From NCBI RefSeq assembly GCF_030273445.1, contig NZ_CP120678.1:1713501-1777500 (forward strand): a stretch of DNA of 64,000 nucleotides. The letters run 5' to 3'. Within the stretch, counting starts at the first letter, position 1. Each line of letters starts with the position of its first letter. This document shows positions 10,731-36,521 of the stretch, one piece after another. The DNA comes from Selenobaculum gibii (GTDB taxonomy: Bacteria > Bacillota > Negativicutes > ICN-92133). A program made the position numbers and the translations under genes. The notes below the pieces were generated by a model, which was not told the origin of the DNA, did not search any database, and was given only the letters and a program-made list of their open reading frames with translations.

Positions 10731-11648
10731 TTGCACAAGTTTTCAATTTTGCTTTTCTTACTTCTTACTTTTAATTTATTTGGCTGCATGCCAAGCAATA
10801 CACCATATATTGATTTTGATAAAACACAATCTACCCCTCCAACAAATACGTATAATGATGAATCTAGTCGTCCGTTAAGAATCGCTGTTGCAACAGTTAT
10901 TTCACCCCATGCTACAATAGAATATTACCGAAATGTTGCAAATCACATATCCAAACAATTAAATCGTCCCACAGTTCTAATTCAAAGAAAAACTTATGAA
11001 GAAGTAAATATGATTATGTCTAATGGAGATGCTGATATTGCTTTCATGTCTACGGGAGCTTATTCTGCATATCGAGGACTTACCGATATTGAGATCATCG
11101 CAATGGTGAATCACAGACAAACTTCATCTTACCATGCCCAAATCATTGTTCATAAAGATAGTGATATTTTCACTGAAGCCGATTTACAAGGAAAAAGCTT
11201 TGCGTTCACTGATCCTTTGAGCTTCTCTGGGCATATTGCAATCGTTGATCTTTTAAATAAAAGAAATATTCGGCCGGAGCAATATTTTAGTCGCTATCTT
11301 TATACCTACAGCCATGATAAATCAATTTGGGCTGTCGCTAATAAAGTTGTTGATGCAGCAAGTATTGACAGCATGATTTTTGATTACAGCCAAAAAATCC
11401 AACCTGAACTCGCAAAAAACATTCGCATTATTAGTATAATTGGACCTTATCCAACTGGTCCTGTAGTTGTTCGATCTAAATTAAATAAGGAACAAAAAGA
11501 TGCAATCCAACATATCTTTTTAACAATGCACAAACATGAAGACATGCTAAATTCTTTAGATAATTTGCTTATTGATAATTTCATTCTTCCAAACGTTGAG
11601 CTATACAAACCGTTGCAAAAAATCTATGATCAAATTGGTGGCATATAA
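10731..11648 (+). CDS. PhnD-like periplasmic binding lipoprotein
   Basis: Substrate-binding protein of the phosphate/phosphite/phosphonate (PhnD) family. GGGGAGG at 10715-10721 sets the start at TTG 10731, giving 305 aa and a lipoprotein signal with lipobox LFGC (Cys19). The body has typical PhnD features: PLRIAVATVISP, SNGDADIAFMSTGAY and a LQGKSFAFTDPLSFSGH stretch. No ABC permease or ATPase is nearby. Instead the stop codon overlaps the start of a histidine kinase by one base, so it probably presents a ligand to the kinase rather than to a transporter (inference). Confidence 0.88.
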   Translation: MHKFSILLFLLLTFNLFGCMPSNTPYIDFDKTQSTPPTNTYNDESSRPLRIAVATVISPHATIEYYRNVANHISKQLNRPTVLIQRKTYEEVNMIMSNGDADIAFMSTGAYSAYRGLTDIEIIAMVNHRQTSSYHAQIIVHKDSDIFTEADLQGKSFAFTDPLSFSGHIAIVDLLNKRNIRPEQYFSRYLYTYSHDKSIWAVANKVVDAASIDSMIFDYSQKIQPELAKNIRIISIIGPYPTGPVVVRSKLNKEQKDAIQHIFLTMHKHEDMLNSLDNLLIDNFILPNVELYKPLQKIYDQIGGI

Positions 11649-13069
11649 TGAATTGGTTAAGAGAACAAAAATTATCAACAAAAATAAATACTCTCATCCT
11701 TGGAACACTCCTTACACTTAGTACAATTATGGTGATTCTAATGCATGGAATTACTAGAGATATTATGGAACGTCAAGTCGAACTGCGTGGCTATGAAATC
11801 GCAAATTATATTGCGGCTTCTGGGACAAATGATATTTTACAGGAGAATGCTTATGCCATCTTTGATCTAATAAAAAAGGTTAAAGATAATAATGAGGATG
11901 TTCGATATATTTTAGTTGTTGACTATTCGGGTAAAATTATTGGTAGTACATTTGAACAAGGTTTACCTAAAGGGTTGCCTGCTCATATTTCAACTGATAA
12001 TATTATAAAAAGGCAAGTTGCCAAATATAATAGTTCAGAAGGAACGATTTATGAAGTTATCGTTCCATTAGAAAACGGTAACGTCGGTTCGATTCGCGTT
12101 GGAATGTCTAATAAGATCATGTATAATTTATTAGCCGTAACCTTAACAGAATTTTCTTTAACAATTTTTGCTCTAGCCTTCACCGCTGTTATTTTAACAG
12201 GCTGGTTAACTTCTATTATCATTAAACCTATTATTGATTTAGCTAAAGCAGCCGAAGAAATTAAAAATAATAACTATGCTGTTCAAACAGATTATGATAC
12301 AAATGACGAAGTTGGTAATTTAGCGAAAACATTTAATGAAATGGCATTAAGTCTTGATCAGAAAGAAAAAGAAAATAATAAATTGTTAGAAGCTTTGCGC
12401 TTAAAGGAAATGAATCGTACCGTACTCCTTAACAAAATATTTACTGCGCAAGAAGACGAAAGAAAAAGAATTTCCCGTGAGCTGCATGATGGCGCTGGAC
12501 AATCTATTACATCAATCCTCGCTTACTTGCGAATTCTGTTAGCAAAAACATCCGATGCATCCCAGCAATCGTTAATTTTAGCAGCACGTGACGTTATTGT
12601 TAATGTATTAAACGAATTAAAGCAGCTAGCTGTAGATTTACGCCCACCAGCAATTGACGATTTAGGTCTTATTTCTGCAATGGAAAAATATATTCATGGA
12701 CTCACCGTTGCACACAATAACATTTATTTTAACGTAAGTTTACCAAAAGATGATTTTGAATTTCCTGATAAGATTACTTCTGCATTATATCGTATTCTAC
12801 AAGAATCAACGAATAATATCATCCGACATGCTAAGGCAACAAATATTGATATTATTTTAAGTAAAAATCAAAATAACGTTCAACTTATCGTCCGTGATAA
12901 CGGACGCGGTTTTAGTAAGGCAACATTAGAAAAAGCACAAAAAAATAATCACTTAGGTGTTTATGGTATGAAAGAACGTATTGAATTATTAGAGGGTGAA
13001 TTTAATCTTAAATCTAAAATTGGCATTGGAACAACGATAACAATTAGAATCCCATTAAAATTGGAGTAG
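11648..13069 (+). CDS. Sensor histidine kinase, HisKA_3 (NarX/DegS) type
   Basis: Membrane kinase with helices at about residues 15-35 and 164-190 framing a 130-residue extracytoplasmic domain, then a HAMP domain, a short coiled coil and a HisKA_3 dimerisation domain. His280 in RISRELHDGAGQ is the phosphorylation site. The HATPase domain has LQESTNNIIRHA, VRDNGRGF and a final glycine loop. It starts one base inside the stop of the PhnD-like lipoprotein gene and is followed after 7 bases by its NarL-type partner. The arrangement suggests sensing of the lipoprotein's ligand-bound state. Confidence 0.93.
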   Translation: MNWLREQKLSTKINTLILGTLLTLSTIMVILMHGITRDIMERQVELRGYEIANYIAASGTNDILQENAYAIFDLIKKVKDNNEDVRYILVVDYSGKIIGSTFEQGLPKGLPAHISTDNIIKRQVAKYNSSEGTIYEVIVPLENGNVGSIRVGMSNKIMYNLLAVTLTEFSLTIFALAFTAVILTGWLTSIIIKPIIDLAKAAEEIKNNNYAVQTDYDTNDEVGNLAKTFNEMALSLDQKEKENNKLLEALRLKEMNRTVLLNKIFTAQEDERKRISRELHDGAGQSITSILAYLRILLAKTSDASQQSLILAARDVIVNVLNELKQLAVDLRPPAIDDLGLISAMEKYIHGLTVAHNNIYFNVSLPKDDFEFPDKITSALYRILQESTNNIIRHAKATNIDIILSKNQNNVQLIVRDNGRGFSKATLEKAQKNNHLGVYGMKERIELLEGEFNLKSKIGIGTTITIRIPLKLE

Positions 13070-13076
13070 TGATATT

Positions 13077-13760
13077 ATGAAAAAGACAAAAATTATTCTT
13101 GCTGACGATCACGCGATTCTCCGCACTGGATTAAAATTATTATTAAGCAATGAAGAATCCGTCGAAGTTGTCGGCGAAGCAAGTAACGGTAATGAAGTTT
13201 TAGAACTTACAGAAAAAATTCCAGCAGACGTCCTCATTCTAGATTTATCTATGCCAGGTGTTCATGGCCTTGATGTGATTAAAGAATTAAAAGAGCATAA
13301 TAATCCAATTAATATATTGGTTTTAACAATGCATAGTGAGGAACAGTATATCAAAACTGCTATGGAAGCTGGTGCTTCTGGATATCTTGAAAAAAGCGCT
13401 TTCGATACGGAATTGCTTACGGCCGTAAAAACTGTTGCAGCGGGTAAAATTTATTTAAACAACCAGCATGCACTTCTGATGGTAAATTCTCTACTAAATA
13501 ATACGTCAGAAGAAACAAAAGAAAAAGACCCTTACGTTCTTCTTAGCAAACGAGAAATTGAAGTATTAAAGCTTTTTGTTCGCGGTTATTCGCTATCCGA
13601 AATCGGCAAAATGCTTTCTCTAAGCTTAAAAACTATAGATACCTATAAGACTAGAATTTTTGTCAAGCTTGGATTAACAAAAAAAAGTGAGCTTGTTCAG
13701 TATGCATTAGAGCATGGTATTCTGACAGCTGATGATAATGATATGCCAACTTTAGATTGA
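13077..13760 (+). CDS. Response regulator, NarL/FixJ family
   Basis: Transcription factor with an N-terminal receiver (acidic pocket Asp10-Asp11, phosphorylation site Asp56 in LILDLSMPG) and a C-terminal LuxR-type helix-turn-helix at about 150-215 (LSKREIEVLKLF, then LSLKTIDTYKTRI). 227 aa is standard. It is the cognate partner of the kinase just upstream and ends the operon at a terminator. Its targets cannot be read from the window. Confidence 0.95.
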   Translation: MKKTKIILADDHAILRTGLKLLLSNEESVEVVGEASNGNEVLELTEKIPADVLILDLSMPGVHGLDVIKELKEHNNPINILVLTMHSEEQYIKTAMEAGASGYLEKSAFDTELLTAVKTVAAGKIYLNNQHALLMVNSLLNNTSEETKEKDPYVLLSKREIEVLKLFVRGYSLSEIGKMLSLSLKTIDTYKTRIFVKLGLTKKSELVQYALEHGILTADDNDMPTLD

Positions 13761-13910: not shown

Positions 13911-14738
13911 TTATGAATTAACTACACAACTTACGCCTATCCCATCTTTTTCTTTTAAATATTCGTAGATTTCCCCTACACCTTTAAAAATATAAGTTGG
14001 CTTTACATCTGACTCATTAACATCTTTCATTGTAGCTTCACCAGATAAAACAAGAATAGAAGTAATACCTGCATTTATGCCAGTTTTAACATCCGTATAT
14101 AATCTGTCCCCAACCATTGCAAATTCTTCCGGTTTATACTGACATCTTTTTCTGAATACACTTTCTACAATTTCACGATTAGGTTTTCCAATAACTTTTG
14201 GCATTTTTCCTGTAGAAGCCTTGATTAACTCCATCATCGCTCCACAATCAGGAATATATGCATCGTTTGGCATTGGACAATTAAAATCAGGATGCGTTGC
14301 TATGTAAGGTACACCTGCACGAATTAAATCACAGCCTATAACAAGTTTTTCATAAGTTAATGTCTTATCAAAGCCTAAAACAACAAAATCTGGATTCTCA
14401 TCTGTAAGAATAAATTTGTAGTCCAAAAATTGTTTTTCCAATTCTGGCGTTCCCATTAAGTAAACCCTCGCTTTTGGCTTTAAGCTATATAAATAGTTAA
14501 CAGTAGCCTCTCCTGATGTCATTACGTCAATTGGATTACATGCTATACCCAGTCCTCGCATTTTTTGAACGTAATCATCACTGTTCTTTGAAGAATTATT
14601 CGTCATAAACAGATAGTCCCGACCACTTTCTTTTAGATATTTCAGAAATTCAGCTGCTCCTGGTAAAAGTTCATTACCAATTGTCACCGTCCCATCCATA
14701 TCTAATAAAAAACACTTAATCTTTGATAAGTCTGTCAT
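13911..14738 (-). CDS. HAD-superfamily IIA phosphatase (NagD/PGP-like)
   Basis: A cytoplasmic phosphatase of the HAD-IIA group. Motif I is FLLDMDGTV (nucleophile and acid/base aspartates), motif II is MTNNSSKN, and motif III/IV is MVGDRLYTDV. Homologues act on small phosphoesters such as p-nitrophenyl phosphate, nucleotides, 2-phosphoglycolate or glycerol phosphate. The open frame starts six codons earlier, but GGGAG before ATG 14738 favours 275 aa. It lies directly downstream of the glpT-type gene but behind that gene's terminator, so a link to glycerol phosphate is possible but unproven. Confidence 0.88.
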   Translation of the reverse strand: MTDLSKIKCFLLDMDGTVTIGNELLPGAAEFLKYLKESGRDYLFMTNNSSKNSDDYVQKMRGLGIACNPIDVMTSGEATVNYLYSLKPKARVYLMGTPELEKQFLDYKFILTDENPDFVVLGFDKTLTYEKLVIGCDLIRAGVPYIATHPDFNCPMPNDAYIPDCGAMMELIKASTGKMPKVIGKPNREIVESVFRKRCQYKPEEFAMVGDRLYTDVKTGINAGITSILVLSGEATMKDVNESDVKPTYIFKGVGEIYEYLKEKDGIGVSCVVNS

Positions 14739-14813
14739 TTTATAATCTCCCATCATAAAAAATTTCTCTTTTCTCTTAAATTTCTATATTCAATTTTATT
14801 TTGTAATAAAAAG

Positions 14814-14871: not shown

Positions 14872-16215
14872 TTAACCTTTTGGTTTTGCATTCCATACTA
14901 ACAATGCTAGTATGCAAGATAGAACTGCCGCACCAACCCAGAATTCACCAGCTGCGGTAAAATCGTAAATTGTTTTACCATCAACAACTGTTTTATTTGC
15001 ATTGATGAAGTAACCAGTCACGTTTTCTTGAAGAGCAGCACCCATATAACTGAATAAACCAATCATACCCATTGCAGCACCAGTAGCTTTACGAGGTGCA
15101 ATATCAACAGCCATTAAACCACCAAGGAAGCATACTAAGATACCCATGGAGAAACCGTAACAAACCATGCTGATAAGATCAATTGTGTCAGATTGAGGAG
15201 CCCATAAGAAAGCAGCTGTAGAAGCAGCATAAAGAATACCAAAAATTAAAGCTGGAACATTACGTCTTGAATTAAACACTTTATCAGAAATAAATCCACC
15301 AAGAATTGTACCAACAACACCAGCCATTTGCATTGTAGATAACAAACCAGAAGCACCAAGCATTGAATACCCTTTTGCTTCAGTTAAATATACAATCCCC
15401 CAAGACTCAATTGCATAACGAGTGATATAGCAACAAGCACTAGATAAACCAAGAATCCAAACTGCTGGACTTTTTACAACCATCATTTGTAATTCACTAA
15501 CAGTTTTATCTTTCACCTCACCAGCAACTTCTTCGCCTTTGAAATCTGCAACGTTAGGTAAACCATATGTTTCTGGTCTATCATATAAAAACATATATAA
15601 GAACACAGAAGCAACCATAACAATGATACCAGGAGCAAGGAAACCTGCTTGCCAACTGTATTTTGTAACTAATACAGCAGTAACCATATAAGTAACAGCA
15701 GCACCAATATTATGACTCATAAACCAAATACCATAGAAGGTACCACGTTCCTTATTAGAGAACCATTGGTTCAACGCAATAATAGAAGGACCAGCACCAA
15801 AAGATTGAAACCAACCATTTAAACCATATAAAATTAATAAGAACGTAAATGTACTAGTTAACCCCATTAAAGCTGTACATAGACCAGATAAGAAAAGACC
15901 TGTAGCCATGAATTTTTTAACATTCAATCGGTCACATAAGAAACTATTTGCAAATTTACCAATAGCATAAGTGATAAAGAATGCCGATCCCATCATACCT
16001 AATTGTTGTGCATCAATAACCCCTGAATTCAATAAAGGTTTTTTAACAACTGAAAAGTTTAAACGTGTTACATAGTAAAAGGCATAACCTAATGTAATTG
16101 AAATAAATACTGACCAACGGGCTTTGTTAAAAGTTTTAGCAATAACATTTGGGTCATTACTAATTAACGGTTTATCCTCACCCGTTTTAAAAAAGTTCAT
16201 AAAAGCTTGAAACAT
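14872..16215 (-). CDS. glpT: MFS transporter, organophosphate:phosphate antiporter family (GlpT-like)
   Basis: A 447 aa, 12-helix permease of the OPA family (GlpT/UhpT/UhpC). Family features include RWSVFISITLGYAFYYVTR near the start, LNGWFQSFGAGPS and a DRPETYGLP loop in the centre. The substrate is inferred as glycerol 3-phosphate because three glycerophosphodiester phosphodiesterase genes lie immediately upstream on the same strand. A hexose-phosphate substrate cannot be excluded from sequence alone. It follows the nearest phosphodiesterase after 93 bases that contain a 14-bp hairpin lacking a T tract, so read-through transcription is likely. Confidence 0.87.
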   Translation of the reverse strand: MFQAFMNFFKTGEDKPLISNDPNVIAKTFNKARWSVFISITLGYAFYYVTRLNFSVVKKPLLNSGVIDAQQLGMMGSAFFITYAIGKFANSFLCDRLNVKKFMATGLFLSGLCTALMGLTSTFTFLLILYGLNGWFQSFGAGPSIIALNQWFSNKERGTFYGIWFMSHNIGAAVTYMVTAVLVTKYSWQAGFLAPGIIVMVASVFLYMFLYDRPETYGLPNVADFKGEEVAGEVKDKTVSELQMMVVKSPAVWILGLSSACCYITRYAIESWGIVYLTEAKGYSMLGASGLLSTMQMAGVVGTILGGFISDKVFNSRRNVPALIFGILYAASTAAFLWAPQSDTIDLISMVCYGFSMGILVCFLGGLMAVDIAPRKATGAAMGMIGLFSYMGAALQENVTGYFINANKTVVDGKTIYDFTAAGEFWVGAAVLSCILALLVWNAKPKG

Positions 16216-16260
16216 TTTTACAAGCCTCCTTAATATTTGTTCAAATGTAGAGTGTCCGAT

Positions 16261-16294
16261 TCAGGAAAATAAATTCAAGCATTTATTTTCCTGA
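16261..16294 (-). other. Intercistronic stem-loop between phosphodiesterase and glpT genes
   Basis: Perfect 14-bp arms (16261-16274 and 16281-16294) with a 6-base loop. No T run follows on the minus strand, so it fits an mRNA-processing or 3'-end-stabilising hairpin better than a terminator. Confidence 0.5.
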
Positions 16295-16308
16295 ATTATT
16301 CAGTTTAA

Positions 16309-17460
16309 TTAGTAAGCAGCGTCCATTCCGCCAGCAAGTTTTGTAGTGTGAACACGATTATAGTTAGTACCTGTATGATATTTGCTCTTTAAGTTAACTA
16401 CAGGATCTCTTAATTCAACACCTTTTTCTTCAAGAACAGTTCTTAATAACCAAGGCTTATCAGAAATCATGCCATCAACACCCATATGTAATAGCATTTC
16501 CATATCTTCTCTACTATTTACTGTCCAAGGAACAACTTTCATACCTAAAGAATGTGCTAAAGCAACATCATCTTGGGAAATTTCTGGATAGTAAGGTGAA
16601 ACAACATCCGCACCGATTGCTTTTGCTGCTAAATATGGATTACCTTGATAATCATCAATATCCAAGCCACCTAACCATGGAGATTTACCTTCTTCATATG
16701 CACGTAAGCATACGGAATCACGACCCCATGAAGGCTGTTCACACCACAATGCTACAGTTGTAATATTTGGATTAATTTGTTTCATGATAGGAATAGTTCT
16801 CCAATCAAATGTTTGAAGAGTTACACGATCTTCCATATCATATTTTTTAACTAATCTGTTAAATTCAGTTACAAAAGCAACTGGATCAACATCTTTTGTA
16901 GCTGTATAAGCAGCGCCACCTTCTGGATCTATGCACAACTTAGTTTCAGCATTAACTACAACTTTGTCATCACCATACTCTTTAATCAGTTGGAATAATT
17001 CTTCCAAAGTAGGCATTTGTGCACCTGGCTGAGCAATTTGAGTTTTTCCATGGCCTTCATAATATTCACCTTTTGGATCCATTACACCAATGTCAAATTT
17101 TTTAATTTCATTCACAGTCATTTGGCTGATAACATATTTGCCATTTTCAATGTAATTTCCATTTTTATCTCTCGTGATATCATGATTTAAAACTGGATTA
17201 TGGCTCATTACGATTTTGCCATCTTTAGTAAATTGCATGTCACATTCAATCGAAGTAGCACCCATTTCCATTGCATATGCATAAGAATATAATGTGTTTT
17301 CTGGACGAGCATCACGGCCACCACGATGTGGTTGGAAGTCGAATACATCAAAGTTTACTTTTGCATAAGCTTGTTGTTGGTCTACCAAGCTGCCACCAAA
17401 TCCGATTACGGCTGTTGCAACACCTGCAAGCACCATACGTTTCATTAATTTACTGTTCAT
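16309..17460 (-). CDS. Glycerophosphodiester phosphodiesterase, exported (copy 1)
   Basis: Hydrolyses glycerophosphodiesters to glycerol 3-phosphate and an alcohol. After a signal peptide (basic MKRM, hydrophobic core, cut near AYA-KV) comes the GDPD fold with the HRGG...ENT catalytic start, IECDMQFTKDG and MSHNP. AAGGAGATGG before ATG 17460 fixes the start (383 aa; the open frame runs 14 codons longer). It resembles copy 3 (19438-20619) closely and copy 2 less. With the downstream GlpT-type transporter it would form a scavenging route for phospholipid head groups. Confidence 0.92.
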   Translation of the reverse strand: MNSKLMKRMVLAGVATAVIGFGGSLVDQQQAYAKVNFDVFDFQPHRGGRDARPENTLYSYAYAMEMGATSIECDMQFTKDGKIVMSHNPVLNHDITRDKNGNYIENGKYVISQMTVNEIKKFDIGVMDPKGEYYEGHGKTQIAQPGAQMPTLEELFQLIKEYGDDKVVVNAETKLCIDPEGGAAYTATKDVDPVAFVTEFNRLVKKYDMEDRVTLQTFDWRTIPIMKQINPNITTVALWCEQPSWGRDSVCLRAYEEGKSPWLGGLDIDDYQGNPYLAAKAIGADVVSPYYPEISQDDVALAHSLGMKVVPWTVNSREDMEMLLHMGVDGMISDKPWLLRTVLEEKGVELRDPVVNLKSKYHTGTNYNRVHTTKLAGGMDAAY

Positions 17461-17564
17461 TTTACTCCATCTCCTTTTCTCTAAATGAAATGACCCTTTC
17501 ACTTTTCAAGTATACTATTTTCCCCAATTAATAAAATCAGATAAAATCTGAAGTTGTTGTAGGA

Positions 17565-17813: not shown

Positions 17814-17862
17814 CTTCATTCCATTTATAGTAAGATTTATTCTTACTATAAATGGAATGAAG
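17814..17862. repeat. Perfect 22-bp hairpin in intergenic DNA
   Basis: Arms 17814-17835 and 17841-17862 match perfectly around a 5-base loop. A CTTTTTG tract follows on the plus strand, none on the minus strand, although both flanking genes are on the minus strand. Confidence 0.6.
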
Positions 17863-17896
17863 CTTTTTGCTAATCTGATATAAATTTATAATAATA

Positions 17897-17934
17897 TAAG
17901 GCAGCCAATAAAATTTTTTTATTGGCTGCCTTAT
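17897..17934 (-). terminator. Probable terminator of phosphodiesterase copy 2
   Basis: ATAAGGCAGCCAATAAA pairs with its complement just after the stop at 17941. The following minus-strand DNA is AT-rich but lacks a pure T run. Confidence 0.6.
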
Positions 17935-17940
17935 ATAACT

Positions 17941-19020
17941 TTAATTTATTCTTCTATTATCATTATTATATTGACTATTTAATGGCTTTTTACTTGGTTC
18001 AGGGACTGCTATCCCATTTTCAATACAAACTTCTCGAAGTAAAGCTGGATCATCACTAATGATTCCATCAACTCCCAAATCTATTAATCTTTCCATTTCC
18101 GCTCTATCATTTACTGTCCATGGCAAAATTTTCATTCCTAATGCATGTGCTTCTTCTACAGTTTTTTTGGTCACCTGCGCATAATTAGGTGAAATAATAT
18201 CAGCGGCGATTGCATGTGCAGCTTTTACAAAGTTTCCATCAAAAGCCTTTGCATCTAATCCACCTAACCAAGGGGAAGGTGCTGCTTTATCCATCGCCAA
18301 TAATTTCGGATTTTTAGAAATCAAAGCTGCAAGTGTGATATCACTATCATATTGCTTCATTTCTATCAGCGTTCTCCAATCAAAAGATTGTAATACAACT
18401 CGATCTTGCATTCCATACTGAGTGATAACATCATGCAATTTTCTCACAAAAATATCAGGAGGCGTGTTATTAGCATGTTCCTTTTCATTTTTATCAGGAA
18501 ATGATTTCGTTTCAATATTAAAAGTTACCTTATCATTGCCATATGCTTTTACCAGCTCAAAAACTTCAGCTAAAGTTGGATATTTAGCATCTTTGAAAGA
18601 AATTTGTTTTGAAAAATTATCATGATATTTATGCTCAGGATTAATTCCACCAATATCATATTTTTTCAATTGCTCTATCGTTAATAGGCGAACATCTTTT
18701 TCCTCGTTTTCCTTTAGCCATTTACCATCTTTTTTCGTCAAATAATAATATGTGCTTGGGTTATGAGACACAAACACTACACCATCTTTTGAAATATATG
18801 TATCCATTTCTAAGGTAGTAACACCTAGTTCCAATGCATTCGCAAATGCATCTAATGTATTTTCTGGACGAAGTGCACGTCCACCACGATGTGCCTCTAA
18901 GTCAAAACCTTCAATCACACATTTTGCCTCCACGGCCTGTTCAGTATGAAATCCAACCAAAAGAGAAGTCGCTATTAATGCACTGCTAATAATTTTTGCT
19001 AATCTTTTTTCATTTTTCAT
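17941..19020 (-). CDS. Glycerophosphodiester phosphodiesterase, exported (copy 2)
   Basis: The same GDPD family and exported form: signal peptide ending near VEA-KC, then AHRGGRALRPENT, LEMDTYISKDG and SHNP. It is more diverged than copies 1 and 3, with a shorter insertion after the first active-site strand and no WGRD/WGPD segment, which may mean another preferred head group (inference). AAAGGGG before ATG 19020 sets 359 aa. It is flanked by its own hairpins, so it is probably transcribed alone. Confidence 0.9.
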   Translation of the reverse strand: MKNEKRLAKIISSALIATSLLVGFHTEQAVEAKCVIEGFDLEAHRGGRALRPENTLDAFANALELGVTTLEMDTYISKDGVVFVSHNPSTYYYLTKKDGKWLKENEEKDVRLLTIEQLKKYDIGGINPEHKYHDNFSKQISFKDAKYPTLAEVFELVKAYGNDKVTFNIETKSFPDKNEKEHANNTPPDIFVRKLHDVITQYGMQDRVVLQSFDWRTLIEMKQYDSDITLAALISKNPKLLAMDKAAPSPWLGGLDAKAFDGNFVKAAHAIAADIISPNYAQVTKKTVEEAHALGMKILPWTVNDRAEMERLIDLGVDGIISDDPALLREVCIENGIAVPEPSKKPLNSQYNNDNRRIN

Positions 19021-19300
19021 AAAAATCCCCTTTAACATTTATCTTTAATATTAAAATTATACGCAAACCTTTCTCTTAATGAAAACTTCAATGATTTGTT
19101 TTTGCACTGATTAATTAATACATCCGTTTAAGATCCTTTTAAGAAGTTCTAACCCTTTTCTTAAAATCATATAAAAATTTTTATAAGAAAGCAGTCGGAT
19201 TTTTTCTGATTTTCATAGGATTTTTTCCGGAACGTTCAGTCAATTTCATTATTTATCTATTTTACAAATTCACAAAAACTTTTCTCACAATTTTATATAC

Positions 19301-19437: not shown

Positions 19438-20619
19438 TTATTCAGCTGCATCTGCTCCACCCGTTAATTTTTTTGTTTCAACTTCAATATGCTCTGTTCC
19501 AGTATGATATATACTACCTTCATTTATTACAGGCTGTCTCATCGCAATTCCCCGTTTCTCAAGTACATTACGTAAAATCCAAGGTTTATCGGTAATAATC
19601 CCATCAACGCCCATATTTATCATCATATTCATATCATTTACATCATTTACTGTCCAAGGAACTACCTTCATCCCTAATTCATGCGCCTGCTCAACATTCT
19701 GTTTTGAAAATTCCATAAAATATGGAGAAACTACATTTACCCCAATTGCATGAGCAGCTAAAATTGGATTACCTTTATAATCATCAATATCTAGTCCACC
19801 AAGCCAAGGAGATTTACCTTCTTCATAGGCTCTTAAGGATAATGCATCTGGGCCCCATGATGCTTGTTCTTGCCATAAGGCAACAAGCTTAATTTTCGGA
19901 TTAATTTTCTTCATTTCAATTAAAGTTCTCCAATCAAAAGACTGTAGTAAAACTCTGTCTTCCATATTGTATTTTTTCACAACTTCATTAAAGACTTTTA
20001 CAAAACGTATTGGATCAACATTATTTTCATATGCAGCACCTGAAAGCGGATCAGGATAAGACTTAGTTTCAGCATTTATAATTACTTTGTCATCACCGTA
20101 TTCTTTAATTAACTCAAAAACTTCATCTAATGTAGGAATTTTTGCACCAGGCACGCTAACTTGCGTTCTGCCATGCCCTTCATAATATTCACCACTATTA
20201 GGGTCCATTGTACCCACATCAAACTTTTGTATTTCTGCTAATGTCATATTGCGAATATCATATTTTCCGTCTTCAACATATTTTCCATTTTCATCTTTAG
20301 TTAAATTATGATTGAGAATTGGATTATGACTCATTACAATACGATCATCTTTTGTTAACTGCATATCACATTCAATCGTTGTCGCCCCCATTTCCATTGC
20401 ATAAGCATAAGCGTATAAGGTGTTTTCAGGCCTTGCATCACGACCACCTCGATGTGCCTCAAAATCAAATAATTCATTTCCAAAGTCAACTTTTTCTTCA
20501 TGCGCTTCTTCTTGTTTATTCGCTCCACCAATACCAAATAAAGCTGCTCCAACACCGACAACTGCAACCAATACTACAGCAACCAACACATACTTTAACC
20601 AATTATTTTGCCCCAACAT
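19438..20619 (-). CDS. Glycerophosphodiester phosphodiesterase, membrane-anchored (copy 3)
   Basis: GDPD enzyme with an N-terminal hydrophobic helix (LVAVVGVGAALFG) that is probably a signal anchor. The domain begins FEAHRGGRDARPENT and keeps IECDMQLTKD and MSHNP. It is close to copy 1 over its whole length, including the C-terminal end (YHTGTEH, KLTGGADAA), which suggests a tandem duplication. AAGGAGATGACG before ATG 20619 gives 393 aa. It is the most upstream of the three copies, with its own terminator downstream. Confidence 0.91.
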   Translation of the reverse strand: MLGQNNWLKYVLVAVVLVAVVGVGAALFGIGGANKQEEAHEEKVDFGNELFDFEAHRGGRDARPENTLYAYAYAMEMGATTIECDMQLTKDDRIVMSHNPILNHNLTKDENGKYVEDGKYDIRNMTLAEIQKFDVGTMDPNSGEYYEGHGRTQVSVPGAKIPTLDEVFELIKEYGDDKVIINAETKSYPDPLSGAAYENNVDPIRFVKVFNEVVKKYNMEDRVLLQSFDWRTLIEMKKINPKIKLVALWQEQASWGPDALSLRAYEEGKSPWLGGLDIDDYKGNPILAAHAIGVNVVSPYFMEFSKQNVEQAHELGMKVVPWTVNDVNDMNMMINMGVDGIITDKPWILRNVLEKRGIAMRQPVINEGSIYHTGTEHIEVETKKLTGGADAAE

Positions 20620-20778
20620 CGTCATCTCCTTTTCAACTAAATAAAATTCTGTCAATTATCATCTGTATCAATTAAATTTTGATAAAGCAAAAATTATTTA
20701 TCCAATAATTAACTCGTCCTAAAATTTCTTTTTGTTATAAATAGACTCTAGGACCAGCTAAACTTCTGGATAAATGTA

Positions 20779-26615: not shown

Positions 26616-27014
26616 TTATACATGAATCAGCTCTAATTTTTGCAATACTTCTTTTAATTTCTCTGCATCTAAAGGCTTGGTAGCATATGCTTCGCAGCCA
26701 ATTTCAAAAGCTTTATTCACATATTCTTTATCAGATAAAGCTGTTGTCATAATAACTTTTGCTTTTTTTTCACTCGGAATATTTTGCTGTTTCTCTAAGG
26801 CTCGAATTGTTTTCAAAACTCTTACTCCATCTACCTTTGGCATCATAATATCAAGACAAATTAAATCATATGGATTTTTTTCTTTTAATGCTAATAAAAA
26901 AGCATCTAACGCTTCCATTCCATCCACTGTAATATCACACTCGCCGTATTTTCCAAGCATTTTTGAAATCACCTTACGACTAATCAAATCATCTTCTGCT
27001 AATAGTATTTTCAT
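26616..27014 (-). CDS. Stand-alone receiver (CheY-like) protein
   Basis: A single receiver domain of 132 aa: acidic pocket Glu7-Asp8-Asp9, phosphorylation site Asp55 in LICLDIMMPK, and a KPLD lysine loop near the end. No output domain. It follows the hybrid kinase gene by 13 bases with AAAGGGGTGTAG as ribosome-binding site, so it probably receives phosphoryl groups from that kinase or from CheA. It is distinct from the CheY at 36522-36884. Confidence 0.9.
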   Translation of the reverse strand: MKILLAEDDLISRKVISKMLGKYGECDITVDGMEALDAFLLALKEKNPYDLICLDIMMPKVDGVRVLKTIRALEKQQNIPSEKKAKVIMTTALSDKEYVNKAFEIGCEAYATKPLDAEKLKEVLQKLELIHV

Positions 27015-27027
27015 TTTCTACACCCCT

Positions 27028-30000
27028 TTATTCATTAAAAATATTTAGTATATCTTTCAATAAATTTAACTGTTCCATTGCTTCGTCTAAATCTCCCCGT
27101 CTAGCTGCTAATTGAATTTTAAACAAAATACCATTTTCTTCTTCTTGATGATTTTCTTGAAAAATATCTCTCAACACTTCGGCTTTTCTTTCAATATTGT
27201 TAATATTTTCTTTACAAATTTCAACCTCTAAATCCTTAACTAATTCCAATAAATTTTTTACATGTATTTGTTGCTCATGCGTTTTATCACTAATTTTACT
27301 TAAACAATATGTCATTAAATCGTCTATATTTACTTCGTCTATATTCGTAGATGCGTTCTCAACATACTTTTGTAAGTGTGTATTTATCACTTCTTTTATT
27401 TTCGCATCCAACTCATCCATTGGAATTGGCTTTGCTATATATTCATCCATTCCATAGGACAAATATTTTTCCCTATCGCCACTTAGAGCATTTGCAGTAA
27501 GCGCAATAATTGGTGTATATGTCTCTTCCCTCTTTTCATAAGCTCTAATATATTGTGTTGCTTCCACACCACCCATTTCAGCCATTTGTATATCCATTAA
27601 AATACAATCATATTTATCAGTCTGCACGTTCTCTATAGCTTCTCTTCCATTGCTAACAACGGTTACATCATAATTCAATTCTTTTAAAATCTTACTTATA
27701 ACAAGCTGATTTACGAGGTCATCCTCAACGAGTAAAATTCTTCTTTTTATCTTTTCTTTTCTATCTTCATTCGACGTACCTATACTTTTACTCTTTTCTA
27801 TTTCTAAATTTTCAAGAGCTGAAACTTCTCTACAAGGCAAAACAAAGGTAAATTTACTGCCACTCTCATACGTACTCTCTACAAAAATTTCACCTTCCAT
27901 CATTTCTACCAATTGTTTAGTAATCATGAGTCCTAATCCAGTCCCGCCAAACTTGCGTGTAATTGCCCCATCAACTTGACTGAATAATTGAAAAAGCTTT
28001 TTCTTATCATTTTCAGCAATTCCAATTCCCGTATCTATAACAGAAAAATTTAATTTTTCAATTTCATCTTCGACTATTTTTTTTGCAGTTAAAGTGACAC
28101 TTCCTTCTCTGGTAAATTTAACCGCATTACTGATAAGGTTATCAAAAATCTGTTTTAAGCGTGTAGGATCACTAACAATATATCTAGGCAAATTTGAGGA
28201 AAGCAAGTAGGACAATTCTAAGCCTTTTTCTTCAGCCTTAACTGCATGTGCTTTGATAACATCTTCTATCACTCCATACAAATTAAACCGAATCATTTCC
28301 ATTAAAAGTTTCCCAGCTTCCATTTTTGAAAAATCTAAAATATCATTGATAATTCTTAACAAAGAGGTAGAACATGATTTTGCTATCTTTAAATTTTCTC
28401 TTTGCTCTTCACTCAAGTTTCCTAATAAAGTTAAGTCAATCATTCCTACCATTCCATTAATTGGTGTGCGAATTTCATGACTCATATTTGCTAAAAATTG
28501 ACTCTTAGCTTGATTTGCCTCTTCAGCTGCTAGTTTTGCTTTTTTCAATTGCTTCTCAGCCGATTTCTGCTCTGTTATATCTCTATATAATGCAGCAAAA
28601 AACCCTTTTTCCAAACTATAAACGGATAAATGCAACCATTTTTTAGTCATTCTACAATAAAACTCTTTATCAAATCTGCCACATCCAGCCAATGCAATTT
28701 TTCCGCATTCAGCAATCCAATCACTATAATTAATCGAGCACTCTGGGAAAATATCCGAAAAATTCATCCCAACAATTTTTTTCCTCCCAATCCCCATAAT
28801 TTTTAAAAAATCGCTATTCACTTCAATAAATTGAAAATCCAGTGGTATATTTTTTTCATTCGTTACAATTCGATTATAAGTAAAGCCACTATGCATATTC
28901 ATAAACAACGTATGATATTTAGTTCTACTATCTTGTACTGCCTTTTCAAACTCTTTTTTACTCGTAATATCGATACCAATCCCCACATATCCAGCTGGCA
29001 ATCCGTCTACACCATATACTCTCTGATTTATGCACCATAACCATCTATAAATCCCTTGACAATTTTTCACCCGAAATTCAGCTTCATAATTATCTTTTGG
29101 ATTCAGTTTTTTAAAAGAAGTACTTAAATCATCTGGATGTATATAATCAATCCATTTTGTATGATGAAGTTCCTTACTATCAAACCCTAAAAAATTTTTG
29201 CATTGATCATTTAAATAGATAAATTCCTTACCTTTAATCCACCAAACAATTCCGGGAAAACTTGATAAAATTTTAATATGAAAATCTCTAGAACGAGCAA
29301 TTTCCAATTCTCGTTCTTTTCTTTCTGTTGTATCTAATAGACTAACGACAATATTCTGATTTTCTCCTTGTTTAGTTCGAGTTATACTTATTCTTAACCA
29401 AACGGATTTTTGTATTTCTCCATTTATATAATTAAGCAATGTTTCTATATTTTCTACCGCATTTACATTCGTAAGCACATTAATAATACCTGCACGAATT
29501 GCACATTCTTTGCAAGCAGAAGATTTTCCGCATCCGTATTCTAAACTATTTATACAGCAAAATGCATCTCCAAACTGGTTTCCTATAATACAATTACGAT
29601 CTTTATTCATAATTAACAACGCAGATTGATTGATATTTGTAATTGCTCCGGCTTCATTTAGCGTGCACATTCCTACAGGCGATGAATTAAAAATTAATTG
29701 TAAATTTTCACGCTCATCTACAACATATTCTTCTAAATTATGCAATCTTGTAATATCACGTAATACTACCACACCACCAGCAATAGAATTATCATTTCTT
29801 CGTATTGGCGAACACGTTGCCGATAAATAAATTTTTTCTCCATCATTACGCTTTATTCCTGAGTTTTTTTCAAGCCCCACAACCTTTTCTTCAGAAATTG
29901 CACGTTTTATCGGACTATCCAAAATTTTCCCCGTATCCAAATTGATAATTGGACAAACCTCAGTAAAAGTTTTCCCATAGGATCCCTCAGTAGTCACATT

Positions 30001-30132
30001 AATAATCTTAGCAGCCGCCTCATTAATATAAACAACATTTCTCTGAATATCTGTCATAATGATCCCATCACCGATACAATCTAACACGTCATGGATTGGC
30101 ATATACGATTCTTCAATACATTCTTTTAGCAT
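27028..30132 (-). CDS. Hybrid sensor histidine kinase with four PAS domains
   Basis: A 1034 aa kinase with no clear membrane helix, hence probably cytoplasmic. PAS domains span about 10-130, 140-270, 285-395 and 405-520. The second contains a cysteine-rich insert (CCINSLEYGC...ACKEC, residues 192-210) that might bind a metal or sense redox state (inference). The HisKA domain has His552 in FLANMSHEIRTP, the HATPase region spans about 655-770, and a receiver at about 798-915 has Asp847. The last 110 residues are helical and lack the HxxKG motif of a phosphotransfer domain. It sits between cheB and a single receiver, an unusual addition to a chemosensory cluster. Confidence 0.9.
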   Translation of the reverse strand: MLKECIEESYMPIHDVLDCIGDGIIMTDIQRNVVYINEAAAKIINVTTEGSYGKTFTEVCPIINLDTGKILDSPIKRAISEEKVVGLEKNSGIKRNDGEKIYLSATCSPIRRNDNSIAGGVVVLRDITRLHNLEEYVVDERENLQLIFNSSPVGMCTLNEAGAITNINQSALLIMNKDRNCIIGNQFGDAFCCINSLEYGCGKSSACKECAIRAGIINVLTNVNAVENIETLLNYINGEIQKSVWLRISITRTKQGENQNIVVSLLDTTERKERELEIARSRDFHIKILSSFPGIVWWIKGKEFIYLNDQCKNFLGFDSKELHHTKWIDYIHPDDLSTSFKKLNPKDNYEAEFRVKNCQGIYRWLWCINQRVYGVDGLPAGYVGIGIDITSKKEFEKAVQDSRTKYHTLFMNMHSGFTYNRIVTNEKNIPLDFQFIEVNSDFLKIMGIGRKKIVGMNFSDIFPECSINYSDWIAECGKIALAGCGRFDKEFYCRMTKKWLHLSVYSLEKGFFAALYRDITEQKSAEKQLKKAKLAAEEANQAKSQFLANMSHEIRTPINGMVGMIDLTLLGNLSEEQRENLKIAKSCSTSLLRIINDILDFSKMEAGKLLMEMIRFNLYGVIEDVIKAHAVKAEEKGLELSYLLSSNLPRYIVSDPTRLKQIFDNLISNAVKFTREGSVTLTAKKIVEDEIEKLNFSVIDTGIGIAENDKKKLFQLFSQVDGAITRKFGGTGLGLMITKQLVEMMEGEIFVESTYESGSKFTFVLPCREVSALENLEIEKSKSIGTSNEDRKEKIKRRILLVEDDLVNQLVISKILKELNYDVTVVSNGREAIENVQTDKYDCILMDIQMAEMGGVEATQYIRAYEKREETYTPIIALTANALSGDREKYLSYGMDEYIAKPIPMDELDAKIKEVINTHLQKYVENASTNIDEVNIDDLMTYCLSKISDKTHEQQIHVKNLLELVKDLEVEICKENINNIERKAEVLRDIFQENHQEEENGILFKIQLAARRGDLDEAMEQLNLLKDILNIFNE

Positions 30133-30153
30133 AATATCACACTACTCTCTATA

Positions 30154-31170
30154 CTAGATAAAAGAACAAATTTGCTCTGCGATTTGATCTAAAGGCACTT
30201 GTTTTTCCACTGCACCAATATTATAGGCGACGCGAGGCATACCATAAACAACTGAACTTCCCTCATCCTGTCCAATCGTTCTCGCACCAGCTTTACGCAT
30301 ATTGAGTAGCCCTTTCGCTCCATCATAACCCATTCCAGTCATAATTACACCGATTGCCTTATTACCATAAATCTCTGCAACCGAATTAAAAAGAACATCG
30401 ACTGAAGGACAATGACCATTGACTTTTTCCCCTTCAAAACACTCTACGCAAATTTCCGCACCCCGCTTCTTTACTCTCATTTGCATATTCCCTGGAGCTA
30501 TTAGCACTCTTCCTGGAAAAACTTCATCTCCATTTTTCGCTTCTTTTACTTCTAACTCACAAATTGAGTCAAGTCTTTTAGCAAACATATCTGAAAAAAC
30601 CGGAGGGATATGCTGTACGATGACAATCCCTGGTATATTCCCTTTTAGCTCCGTAATCACATCTGTCAATGCAACGGTTCCACCTGTAGATGCACCAATT
30701 GCAATAATTTTATTTTGTACTTGATGAGAAGGCATAGACGAATCAATGAAAGATTTTTTATGTAATGTTCCTTGCTGAATTTTTGCATTTACAGCAATCT
30801 TTATTTTTGTAATCAAATCATTAAAAAAATCTCTATTCGTCAGGATCGCCTTTCCGTCAGGTTTTTTAATGAAATCAACGGCACCTAGTTGTATTGCCTC
30901 AAAAACACAATCATTTATAGAACTAATTACAATTGTTGGGATCGGATACTGAGGGATTAATTTTCGCAAAAATTCTATCCCGTTCATCTTTGGCATTTCT
31001 ACATCTAAAGTCATAACATCAGGGTGATATTGAAGGATTTTATCTCTAGCATCGAATGGATCAACAGCAGTTGCAACTACTTCTATCATTAAATCTTTTG
31101 ATAATGCTTTTGATAATGCCTCACGAAAAACAATTGAATCATCTACAATTAAAAGTTTTATTTTTCTCAT
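30154..31170 (-). CDS. cheB: Chemotaxis protein-glutamate methylesterase/deamidase
   Basis: Removes methyl groups from chemoreceptors. The N-terminal receiver has Asp56 in VMTLDVEMPK. The C-terminal esterase shows Ser161 in IGASTGG, His187 in VQHIPP and Asp283 in GMGYDGAKG, the expected triad. 338 aa is normal. Its ATG is one base past the cheR stop, so the pair is translationally coupled. Confidence 0.97.
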   Translation of the reverse strand: MRKIKLLIVDDSIVFREALSKALSKDLMIEVVATAVDPFDARDKILQYHPDVMTLDVEMPKMNGIEFLRKLIPQYPIPTIVISSINDCVFEAIQLGAVDFIKKPDGKAILTNRDFFNDLITKIKIAVNAKIQQGTLHKKSFIDSSMPSHQVQNKIIAIGASTGGTVALTDVITELKGNIPGIVIVQHIPPVFSDMFAKRLDSICELEVKEAKNGDEVFPGRVLIAPGNMQMRVKKRGAEICVECFEGEKVNGHCPSVDVLFNSVAEIYGNKAIGVIMTGMGYDGAKGLLNMRKAGARTIGQDEGSSVVYGMPRVAYNIGAVEKQVPLDQIAEQICSFI

Positions 31171-31171
31171 A

Positions 31172-31990
31172 TCATAATCCCTTTCTATACACAGCTGGCA
31201 TTACATATTGAAAAGAAAAATCACCACGTTCAATAACTTCCGAATGCCCAATAAATAAATATCCTCCCGGTTCCAACCATTGATAAAATTTATTAACAAG
31301 TTCTTTTCTTGTCACACGATCAAAGTAAATCATTACATTACGGCAAAAAATTATATGAAACTTTTTTTTAAATAAAAATTGAGGATTATTTAAATTAAAC
31401 TGCCTAAAAATAATTTCGTTTTTCAAAGAATTTTTTACTTGAAAATTATTTTCGTTTATCTGTTTAAAATAAGTTTTGCGCCACCTTTTAGGCAACATAT
31501 CGATAGATTCATCATTATAAATTCCAAGGCGTGCATCATTCAAAGCAGAAGTAGATAAATCCGTAGCCAATAATTTTGTATCCCAAGACTGTTTTTGTAA
31601 AGAAAAAAAGTCTTGAATGATCATAGCTAATGTATACGCTTCCTCTCCCGTTGAGCATGCAGCACACCAAGTCCGCAAATCATTGTCTGAAAGTTTTTCT
31701 GAAAAATAAGGTAAAACCTCTTCCGAAAAATACTCAAAATGCTGAGATTCTCGCATAAAAAATGTATGATTTGTTGTAATTGCATTTGCTAAAATTTTAT
31801 CTGCTTGCCCCGTTTTATCCTGTAATAAATATTGATAATAATCATTTGCATTATCAATTCCTAAACTCAAAAGCACTTTATGTAGACGGCCCTCAACAAG
31901 AGTTTTTTTCTCTCTTCCTAAATGAATACCAAATTTATTCTTTATATATAATGTTAATTTCCGAAAATCTTCTTCTGATAATATCCCCAT
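31172..31990 (-). CDS. cheR: Chemotaxis protein methyltransferase
   Basis: SAM-dependent methyltransferase that acts on receptor glutamates. The N-terminal helical domain contains the GIHLGREKKTLVEGRL region. The catalytic domain has WCAACSTGEEAYTLAM (SAM loop) and IIFCRNVMIYF, both family signatures. 272 aa. It starts a second block of the chemosensory genes: a 42-bp palindromic terminator lies between mcp and this gene. Confidence 0.97.
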   Translation of the reverse strand: MGILSEEDFRKLTLYIKNKFGIHLGREKKTLVEGRLHKVLLSLGIDNANDYYQYLLQDKTGQADKILANAITTNHTFFMRESQHFEYFSEEVLPYFSEKLSDNDLRTWCAACSTGEEAYTLAMIIQDFFSLQKQSWDTKLLATDLSTSALNDARLGIYNDESIDMLPKRWRKTYFKQINENNFQVKNSLKNEIIFRQFNLNNPQFLFKKKFHIIFCRNVMIYFDRVTRKELVNKFYQWLEPGGYLFIGHSEVIERGDFSFQYVMPAVYRKGL

Positions 31991-32028
31991 TTTATCACCC
32001 GTTCGCTACCAACGATTATCAATTTAAA

Positions 32029-32070
32029 ATTTGCTCGCATTAGATGATATATCATCTAATGCGAGCAAAT
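32029..32070 (-). terminator. Perfect 42-bp palindrome between mcp and cheR
   Basis: Positions 32029-32049 are the exact reverse complement of 32050-32070. On the minus strand AAATTTTAAATT follows, consistent with a terminator that partly separates cheR-cheB-kinase from the upstream genes. Confidence 0.7.
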
Positions 32071-32082
32071 AATTCCTAGTAA

Positions 32083-33777
32083 TCAATACTTTCCAAATTC
32101 ATCATCAGTTAAAGCAATTTGATTGATATCACTTTTCTTTTTACCATTTAATTTTATCTCAGATGATGATTTTTTCCTATCATCAAACTCAACTTTATCT
32201 TCATAAAAATTTTGCTTTACACTATTCTTTGTAAACTTAAATTCACCAATGGTGTCTTTTAATAAGCTTGCTTGTGCACTAAGTTCTTCACTAGCCGCTG
32301 CCGATTCCTCTGCTGTTGCCGAATTAGCCTGAACAACCTGTGAAACTTGAAGTACACCCTGATTAATTTGTTCAAGTGCTATGCTTTGTTCGTTAGAGGC
32401 ATGAGCTATATTGTCGATAAGGCTAGCGACACCTGTTACTGCCTCTACGATAACATCAAGAGCTTCCGCTGTTTTATTCGCGATTTTTGTTCCCTCATTC
32501 ACTTTAACAATAGACCCTTCAATCATCTCCGTAGTTTCTTCTGCTGCTTTTGCCGAACGCGCAGCTAGATTTCTTACTTCTTCTGCAACTACAGCAAATC
32601 CCTTTCCATGTTGCCCCGCCCGTGCAGCTTCAACCGCTGCATTTAATGCTAAAATATTTGTCTGGAATGCAATTTCATCAATTACTTTAATAATTTTTGA
32701 AATATTTGCTGAAGAACCGTTAATCTCCGTCATAGAAGTTAACATAGCTTTCATATGTTCATTACCTATTTTTGCATTTTTTTGCGCATTTATCGTAAGT
32801 TTATTTGCTTCATCAGCATGTTCTGCATTTAATTTTGTTTGGGATGAAATTTCTTCCAAGGACGACGATAATTCTTCCACCGAGCTTGCTTGTTCTGTCG
32901 CTCCTTGTGATAAAGATATACTGGCATCCGATACATTCTTTGCTCCCGCAGCAACCTGTTCCGAAGCTACATCAATATTAGCTAATGCAATATTCATATG
33001 ATTCCGCATTTTTTCAAAAGCTTTTGCCAAAGAACCAATCTCATCTAGATTTTTTATTTTTAGTTGCGTAGATAAATCCCCATTCGCAATTTTTTCAGAT
33101 GCATCTACCAATATATTTAATCGTTTAGCTATTGTACGAGCTAATAATATCCCTGCAACTATCGCTACAATTGTGACAACTAGCATAACAATCCACATCA
33201 TATACATCGTTTGATGTGCGCGTTCACTAGCAGCTGTATTTTGCTTCATCCCATTTTCTTTTGCCAAATTATATAAAGATGCAAGACCTGTATTAATTTT
33301 ATTTGAAGCCTCAACTGCTCCACTGTTAACCATAAAACTCCAAGCTTCTTTATCTTTATTCTGCAAAGCCATTTGAATGGCCTGATCCCTGAAATAGTTG
33401 TATTTTTCTAAATTATTTTTAAATTCACCTAGTTCTTTTTTTGCTTCTTCCGATTGTGCCTTTGAAAGAACTATTTGATAAGCATGCTCTAAATTTTTAT
33501 CAACTTCTTGCAAGTTATGAATGCTTTCATTAATTGATTTTGCATCATCGTATAAAAAAACATCACGAAAAACACTGCGGCTCTGGTTGAAAATCGTCGC
33601 CATATTTGCGATTTCGCCTGTTGCCAAACCATAATTATTATAAATTTCACTATATTCATCGTCTAACTTATCCATTTGATATATCCCAGAAATACATACG
33701 CAAGCCATAATAATTGTGACACCAATCAATGCACACATAATTTTACTTCCAATTTTCATATTCTTCAAAAATCCCAT
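32083..33777 (-). CDS. Methyl-accepting chemotaxis protein (4HB sensor)
   Basis: Receptor of 564 aa: transmembrane helix about 11-32, an extracytoplasmic domain of about 160 residues with the look of a four-helix bundle (4HB_MCP), a second helix about 192-213, then HAMP and a long coiled-coil signalling domain. The hairpin tip IDEIAFQTNILALNAAVEA and the following GKGFAVVAEEVRNLA are intact. GAGGAGGCATAAAG precedes the ATG. Located between cheW and cheR, it is probably the receptor dedicated to this array; its ligand is unknown. Confidence 0.95.
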   Translation of the reverse strand: MGFLKNMKIGSKIMCALIGVTIIMACVCISGIYQMDKLDDEYSEIYNNYGLATGEIANMATIFNQSRSVFRDVFLYDDAKSINESIHNLQEVDKNLEHAYQIVLSKAQSEEAKKELGEFKNNLEKYNYFRDQAIQMALQNKDKEAWSFMVNSGAVEASNKINTGLASLYNLAKENGMKQNTAASERAHQTMYMMWIVMLVVTIVAIVAGILLARTIAKRLNILVDASEKIANGDLSTQLKIKNLDEIGSLAKAFEKMRNHMNIALANIDVASEQVAAGAKNVSDASISLSQGATEQASSVEELSSSLEEISSQTKLNAEHADEANKLTINAQKNAKIGNEHMKAMLTSMTEINGSSANISKIIKVIDEIAFQTNILALNAAVEAARAGQHGKGFAVVAEEVRNLAARSAKAAEETTEMIEGSIVKVNEGTKIANKTAEALDVIVEAVTGVASLIDNIAHASNEQSIALEQINQGVLQVSQVVQANSATAEESAAASEELSAQASLLKDTIGEFKFTKNSVKQNFYEDKVEFDDRKKSSSEIKLNGKKKSDINQIALTDDEFGKY

Positions 33778-33837
33778 CTTTATGCCTCCTCTAAAATTAT
33801 ATACTTATTTCAATTTTGATATATGTCTAAAAGTAAA

Positions 33838-34332: not shown

Positions 34333-34352
34333 CTTATACCTCCTCCTTTTTC

Positions 34353-36419: not shown

Positions 36420-36521
36420 TTTATCATCTCCTTCAACCTATCCAATGGTTATTATATTTATCCTAAAACTAAATAAAGCACAAATTTTTTTCTACATTAT
36501 AAAAAATTGCAGCACGAATGA

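Follow-up and report, generated by a model that had tools for sequence, protein, structure and literature searches.

A PhnD-type lipoprotein, sensor kinase and response regulator of Selenobaculum gibii as a probable sensor of glycerol-3-phosphate and its diesters

The three-gene unit and the genes that converge on it

Here we describe a three-gene unit of Selenobaculum gibii (Bacillota, Negativicutes) that encodes a binding lipoprotein of the PhnD fold (X), a sensor histidine kinase (S) and a response regulator (R), and that we read as a probable sensor of glycerol-3-phosphate or its diesters. The unit lies in a stretch of 64,000 nucleotides (assembly GCF_030273445.1, contig NZ_CP120678.1, positions 1,713,501 to 1,777,500, forward strand), referred to as the window; coordinates are those of the window unless the genome is named. 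The genome is a single contig of 2.68 Mb, 99.26 % complete. The unit consists of:

10731-11648, + strand: X, PhnD-fold binding lipoprotein, ArrX-like, predicted ligand sensor (PF12974, ArrX match, structure model)
11648-13069, + strand: S, sensor histidine kinase (HAMP, HisKA_3 and HATPase_c domains)
13077-13760, + strand: R, response regulator with a LuxR/NarL-type DNA-binding domain (receiver and GerE domains)

X has 305 amino acids, matches PF12974 (Phosphonate-bd) with 170 bits, starts at a TTG at 10731 preceded by GGGGAGG and carries a lipobox-like LFGC. Its TAA (11646-11648) has one base in common with the ATG of S (11648), and R begins 7 bases past the end of S. The original prediction, made from the sequence alone, had described this trio and its one-base overlap, both of which are present, and had called the regulator NarL-type, in agreement with the domains of R. 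It had also called the kinase NarX-type; the kinase class holds, but S stays far below the cut-offs of the NarX (84.2 versus 578) and NarQ (107.2 versus 553) models, and Pfam finds no NarX-type sensor domain in it at E 0.001. Among the best 25 models, no NCBIfam equivalog cut-off is passed by S or R. The extracytoplasmic domain of S spans roughly residues 35-160. A sequence search of the PDB gave no match to this domain, a fold search with the S model (pTM 0.35) gave kinase-core matches only, and a plasmid search with S found no place with 80 % coverage.

The unit was further predicted to lack transporter genes. This is correct for ABC systems, as no permease or ATPase gene lies inside the unit or beside X in the window, but an OPA-family importer gene lies 1.1 kb past R, in convergent orientation (14872-16215). 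It belongs to a cluster of five genes:

13911-14756, - strand: HAD-IIA phosphatase, final gene of the convergent cluster (profile matches)
14872-16215, - strand: OPA-family (GlpT/UhpC/PgtP-like) organophosphate importer, probable target (model scores, linkage to X)
16309-17460, - strand: GDPD1, glycerophosphodiester phosphodiesterase (GDPD) of secreted type (PF03009)
17941-19038, - strand: GDPD2, glycerophosphodiester phosphodiesterase (profile match)
19438-20655, - strand: GDPD3, glycerophosphodiester phosphodiesterase (profile match)

We place the start of GDPD1 at the ATG at 17460; the list of open reading frames (ORFs) starts it earlier, at a GTG at 17502. The phosphatase gene also adjoins the importer gene in three related loci (L052-L054). 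The importer and the three phosphodiesterases, converging on R, are likely the target of X-S-R. Several hairpins occur between these genes: one of 17 pairs at 16258-16297, within the 93 bases that separate GDPD1 from the importer gene, is possibly a partial terminator or processing site, and two long, perfect or near-perfect ones lie between GDPD2 and GDPD1 (17815-17861 and 17894-17936).

Relatives of X and the binding pocket

Relatives were searched in 380 genomes of the class, among which there is no other genome of the same order or family. At E 0.001, X has a match in 99 of these genomes, chemoreceptor fusions included, and 80 loci were fetched from the stronger matches after exclusion of near-duplicates. 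By tblastn, S directly follows X in 77 of the 80 loci and R is present in 76. The three loci without S (L128-L130) hold distant PhnD-type proteins, 27-28 % identical, and in the fourth locus without R (L108) the contig ends about 1.6 kb past X. Among the loci measured, X and S overlap by four bases in 40 and by one base in four. The three-gene order is therefore conserved, as the original prediction had proposed to check. Its refuting outcome, lipoproteins found mainly with ABC permeases and away from the kinase, is not what the relatives show: ABC genes accompany X in 10 of 76 classified loci, with S and R present there too.

Four loci without a usable X ORF (L102, L110, L122, L127) were left out of the tree and of the context counts; the other 76, together with the window, ArrX and AioX, make up the 79 rows of the tree. 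X of the window falls within a clade of 46 rows with support 100/98. Within 7.5 kb of these 46 modules, the window included, 39 have an OPA importer, GlpT, glpABC or a GDPD gene (OPA importer 31, a less similar OPA gene 3, glpABC 8, GDPD 9), and these 39 span 19 of 21 genera and 13 of 15 families. ABC or molybdoenzyme genes lie beside none of the 46. Both of the less similar OPA genes tested, in L064 and L067, encode a GlpT that passes the curated cut-off and stands in the importer's place. A search of the class gave 52 importer genes with 54 % identity or more, of which 35, the window's among them, lie within 6 kb of X, versus 0 of 32 paralogues of 38-43 % identity (Fisher p 5e-11, relatedness not corrected for). 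In one locus (L080:8091-9279) two ORFs make up a broken importer gene next to X, and the genome has an intact copy with a composite promoter, as defined below, on another contig (L163).

The sister branches have other neighbours. In a branch of eight X rows, six adjoin TtrA-like molybdoenzymes (TtrA model 428.8 bits, cut-off 1750); in these six loci (L116, L118, L119, L121, L123, L126) the unit stands beside the molybdoenzyme and an NrfD/DsrP-like protein, and none of the molybdoenzymes passes an arsenate reductase model. Ten further rows (L087, L088, L092, L094, L097, L099, L103, L105, L107, L114) adjoin an aminoethylphosphonate-like ABC importer resembling PhnS2/PhnU2 (225.3 and 292.1 bits, below the cut-offs). 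Elsewhere outside the window clade, neighbours pass the PgtP cut-off in L106 and L113, the canonical PgtP modules tested, and the GlpT cut-off in L120.

The PhnD-type domain also occurs in chemoreceptors. One with a C-terminal domain of this kind (PF00015 and PF12974) is encoded between eno and glpABC-pyk (L019:6342-8270; genome 2196341-2198269, - strand), and such receptors adjoin glpA or glpB genes in 6 of 21 loci inspected, which suggests chemotaxis toward a related ligand.

The closest solved proteins to X in a sequence search of the PDB are ArrX (E 3.6e-46) and AioX, followed by PtxB and PhnD. A model of X built from nine sequences (pLDDT 74.1) has its best match in ArrX (Z 26.8, with 252 residues aligned at 2.3 A; TM by target 0.86), and in this structural match the ArrX of Chrysiogenes is 34 % identical to X. 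The model also matches GpxB with bound glycerol-1-phosphate (9lf9; Z 21.9). ArrX and AioX are sensor proteins and not importer components (PMC5908839). Taken with the conserved gene order and the absence of ABC genes from the 46 clade modules, this kinship gives good support to the earlier proposal that the kinase senses its ligand through the lipoprotein.

The PhnD anion-binding residues, singled out earlier for inspection, can be followed through AioX. Its phosphate-binding residues Tyr88, Tyr131, Ser161, Ser163, His192 and Asp210 are kept in X as Y89, Y134, S164, S166, H195 and D213, and the whole set is retained save Cys106. This cysteine is S107 in X and serine in all 46 clade rows; cysteine is kept in 8/8 rows of the molybdoenzyme branch, the six molybdoenzyme-linked rows and two others. 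Asp213 is retained in 46/46 rows of the window clade and in three of the ten ABC-linked rows, being changed in the other seven. At the position of AioX Pro240, the clade has Gly243 throughout (46/46), preceded by Pro-Thr (T242 in 42 of 46), and the molybdoenzyme-linked rows have proline (6/6). The report on GpxB places the tail-binding Thr247 of that protein at the position of PhnD Asp205 (PMC12718374), and Badilla et al. put AioX Pro240 at the same position (PMC5908839); this position therefore tracks the ligand tail. X may in this way bind glycerol phosphate.

Predicted operators

Exact inverted repeats upstream of importer, GDPD and glpA genes define a first palindrome, site I (TGTARGA-N5-TCYTACA). 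At a score of 13 or 14 out of 14 it occurs 29 times in 1.45 Mb of loci and not at all in one mononucleotide shuffle. Set side by side, these regions contain a second palindrome 21-24 bases downstream, site II (WTCRGA-N5-TCYG[AC]TA), and a -10 element about 31 bases past the centre of site II. Two palindromes and a -10 at set spacing make up what we call the composite promoter, with a threshold score of 18 or more.

At this threshold the composite precedes 29 of 43 OPA, 4 of 11 GDPD, 2 of 9 glpA and 7 of 20 ABC genes, with 4 of 988 other genes, 0 of 228 X, S or R genes and 1 of 960 shuffles as controls; the rule was tuned on the same loci that it counts here. With the rule fixed, it was then applied to importer genes unlinked to X. 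The composite precedes 10 of 11 importer genes that lie far from X in X-bearing genomes, 2 of 6 in genomes that lack X, and none of 20 paralogous importers (for one of which, L179, the upstream sequence is just 88 bases). Site I alone gives 8/11, 0/6 and 0/20 in the same sets. The ten positives represent six genera, L154-L157 being from one and L164 and L165 from another; the gene without the promoter (L158, score 14) is from a genome whose tested X belongs to the ABC branch.

Site I at a score of at least 13 is found in 21 of 38 GLP loci, window included, a count that still holds a candidate since discarded (17829-17847, below), in 1 of 8 OPA2-only loci and in none of 6 molybdoenzyme loci.

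In the window the following elements were found:

17536-17552, - strand: predicted R operator (site II), ATCAGATAAAATCTGAA, a site match before GDPD1
17558-17564, - strand: one half of site I, the distal operator; TCCTACA, five bases upstream of site II
17509-17514, - strand: predicted -10, TATACT, 30 bases from the operator centre
19193-19210, - strand: second predicted operator, upstream of GDPD2, its -10 lying 31 bases away (composite score 19)
17815-17861, no strand assigned: inverted repeat of 47 bases with a match to the site I consensus at its centre (17829-17847); a probable hairpin or terminator, left out of the operators

In Sporomusa acidovorans (L008/L052), the importer gene is preceded by the same 17-base sequence as ATCAGATAAAATCTGAA. 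The TATACT places the centre of site II near -42, over the place of a -35 element, a position that would fit R as an activator; the transcript of GDPD1 is predicted to begin near 17502. No composite at the threshold precedes GDPD3.

Across the genome, the pattern WTCAGAWWWWWTCTGAW has two places (reversed control, 0); the other site II match, at 1682462, coincides in part with the 3' end of a repressor-like ORF and was set aside. The joint pattern of the site I half and site II has two perfect places, the GDPD1 promoter and genome position 797500. In the 199 kb of this genome that were scanned, composites at the threshold number three (shuffles, 1.9), two of them in the window and one beside glpPFK. 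This third one, at 797500, precedes an ORF of 73 amino acids with a Spo0B-type alpha-helical domain (PF14689; L216:9192-9520; genome 797192-797520, - strand), convergent to glpK of a glpP-glpF-glpK cluster.

Our first operator candidate, AGTAAGATTTATTCTTACT (17829-17847), is the sole perfect match to WGTARGA-N5-TCYTACW in the genome. It is no longer counted as an operator because it is the centre of the 47-base inverted repeat, which explains its symmetry. One-mismatch matches to the same pattern are at control level (9 versus 9), and the closest matches to site I in the genome lie before ilvE or within a gene. Elsewhere in the window, a reading of the ORF list places a chemotaxis cluster at 26616-36884 (CheY, hybrid kinase, CheB, CheR, receptor, CheW, CheA).

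Mechanism, alternatives and wider meaning

Since the set stays together in relatives and predicted R sites precede harvesting genes, it is very probable that X, S and R form a single sensor that signals from outside to inside; we consider it highly probable, from the promoter sequences, that R controls both GDPD1-importer and GDPD2. X, a lipoprotein outside the inner membrane, would use its PhnD-type pocket to bind glycerol-3-phosphate or a glycerophosphodiester giving rise to it. Ligand-loaded X would alter S, S would phosphorylate R, and R would bind tandem palindromes centred near -42 and near -64 and activate the promoters of GDPD1-importer-phosphatase and of GDPD2. The phosphodiesterases would free glycerol-3-phosphate outside the cell and the importer would take it up. 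Gene order, family, linkage and operator grammar can be read directly in the DNA, with the sites themselves being predictions; we infer activation rather than repression, phosphotransfer and contact between X and S. With moderate confidence, the context favours glycerol-3-phosphate or a diester as the ligand, and we hold the complete proposal, sensing of these compounds and activation of their harvest, to be somewhat more probable than its competitors together. The earlier guess of a phosphonate, phosphite or phosphate ligand was thus half right, with the context pointing to a phosphate ester.

Several observations weigh against this proposal. The tail residues Arg223 and Thr247 of GpxB have no strict match in X, and only half of site I is present in the window. 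Composites are few before the glpA genes beside modules (2/9), and weaker ones (score 18) precede the two positive importers of X-less genomes (L160, L161). The window importer falls below every curated substrate cut-off: PgtP subfamily (TIGR00881) 271.4 versus 407.75, the highest score; UhpC 259.5 versus 564; GlpT (TIGR00712) 251.1 versus 632.55; and PgtP (NF047787) 187.1 versus 750. In the ORF-based count, 7 of 46 clade modules have no glycerol-phosphate neighbours, although one of these (L100) has an importer by coordinates and another (L085) is a contig of 3.1 kb. Finally, in L051 genes resembling pstB and phoU lie upstream of X.

This last locus would suit inorganic phosphate as the ligand, with X-S-R acting on the same genes as a local switch for phosphate scarcity. 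OPA importers exchange phosphate. X retains the AioX residues that bind phosphate, apart from the cysteine, and ArrX binds phosphate at 150 uM (PMC5908839). However, the neighbours of 39 of 46 clade modules are glycerol phosphate importers or enzymes and not pst or pho genes, and the sister clades, with changed pockets, go with PgtP, ABC importers or molybdoenzymes, so several ligands fit better than one; we regard phosphate as possible but unlikely. Less likely still is another organophosphate carried by the importer, such as phosphoglycerate, a hexose phosphate or glycerophosphocholine. The importer scores higher with the PgtP-subfamily and UhpC models than with GlpT, and three phosphodiesterases stand beside it, but canonical GlpT takes its place in L064 and L067, glpABC lies beside 8 of 46 modules and the canonical PgtP modules tested are outside the clade.

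We reject the reading of X as an orphan binding protein of a phosphonate or phosphite ABC importer, with an unrelated two-component pair, as very improbable: X passes the general family model TIGR01098 (138.9 versus 112.05) but not the PhnD equivalog model (126.7 versus 261.1), and the unit is kept together in 76 of 80 loci with no ABC genes at the clade modules. Arsenate sensing in the manner of ArrXSR, for arsenate respiration or resistance, is the least credible in spite of ArrX being the nearest solved protein; the genome has no match to the molybdopterin oxidoreductase family (PF00384) and Cys106 is replaced by serine throughout the clade, so that arsenate sensing, and with it the earlier link to electron acceptors, is rejected for this genome, while the sister clade of X does adjoin TtrA-like molybdoenzymes.

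Glycerol-phosphate sensing by X-S-R would resemble known systems in different respects. ArrXSR, AioXSR and ArxXSR likewise cluster a PhnD-fold binding protein, a histidine kinase and a regulator (PMC5908839), and X is nearest to ArrX in sequence and model with the Tyr, Tyr, Ser, Ser, His, Asp pocket kept; unlike them, X has serine for the arsenic-binding cysteine, and its genome has glycerol-phosphate targets and no molybdoenzyme gene. In HptASR (HptRSA)-UhpT of Staphylococcus aureus, an extracellular binding protein, a kinase and a regulator serve an OPA-family phosphate-ester importer (PMC8774646), with the difference that R of the window is of LuxR/NarL type. HptA is not among the 22 solved-protein sequence matches of X up to E 10, and the two were not directly compared.

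PgtABC-PgtP of Salmonella combines an OPA importer with a binding-type protein (PgtC), a kinase and a regulator. Some relatives of X adjoin a PgtP that passes the curated cut-off, which the window importer does not. GpxB shares the PF12974/PhnD-type family and fold and binds glycerol-1/3-phosphate with Tyr, Ser, Ser and His head-group residues that are equally spaced in X (PMC12718374); GpxB feeds an ABC importer, whereas X goes with a kinase and is far closer to ArrX. By analogy, X-S-R may work like HptASR-UhpT and PgtABC-PgtP, except that its binding protein comes from the ArrX branch. We found no paper on such a system in a literature search that left most subscription journals outside.

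More broadly, an ancestral PhnD-type sensor module may have radiated in the Negativicutes into three-component systems for various ligands that are oxyanions or contain phosphorus: glycerol-3-phosphate, phosphoglycerate, aminoethylphosphonate-like compounds and, where the pocket has a cysteine, the electron acceptor of a TtrA-like enzyme. Pocket positions 107, 213 and 243 would form its specificity code, and the glycerol-phosphate, phosphoglycerate and ABC branches would share one promoter grammar of two palindromes at fixed spacing with a -10 at 31 bases; we consider this scenario as a whole to be evenly balanced. Library models label such lipoproteins as phosphate, phosphite or phosphonate binding proteins of ABC importers, and our reading of X gives them a different job. 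Arsenic was given in 2018 as the sole case of signalling by a PhnD-type protein (PMC5908839), and X-S-R would extend such signalling past arsenic. The pocket differences among branches would open ligand choice within one fold to ordinary binding assays. With this operator grammar, the regulon could be predicted in many anaerobes, and the system may be linked to the harvest of membrane-lipid debris by anaerobes of gut and soil.

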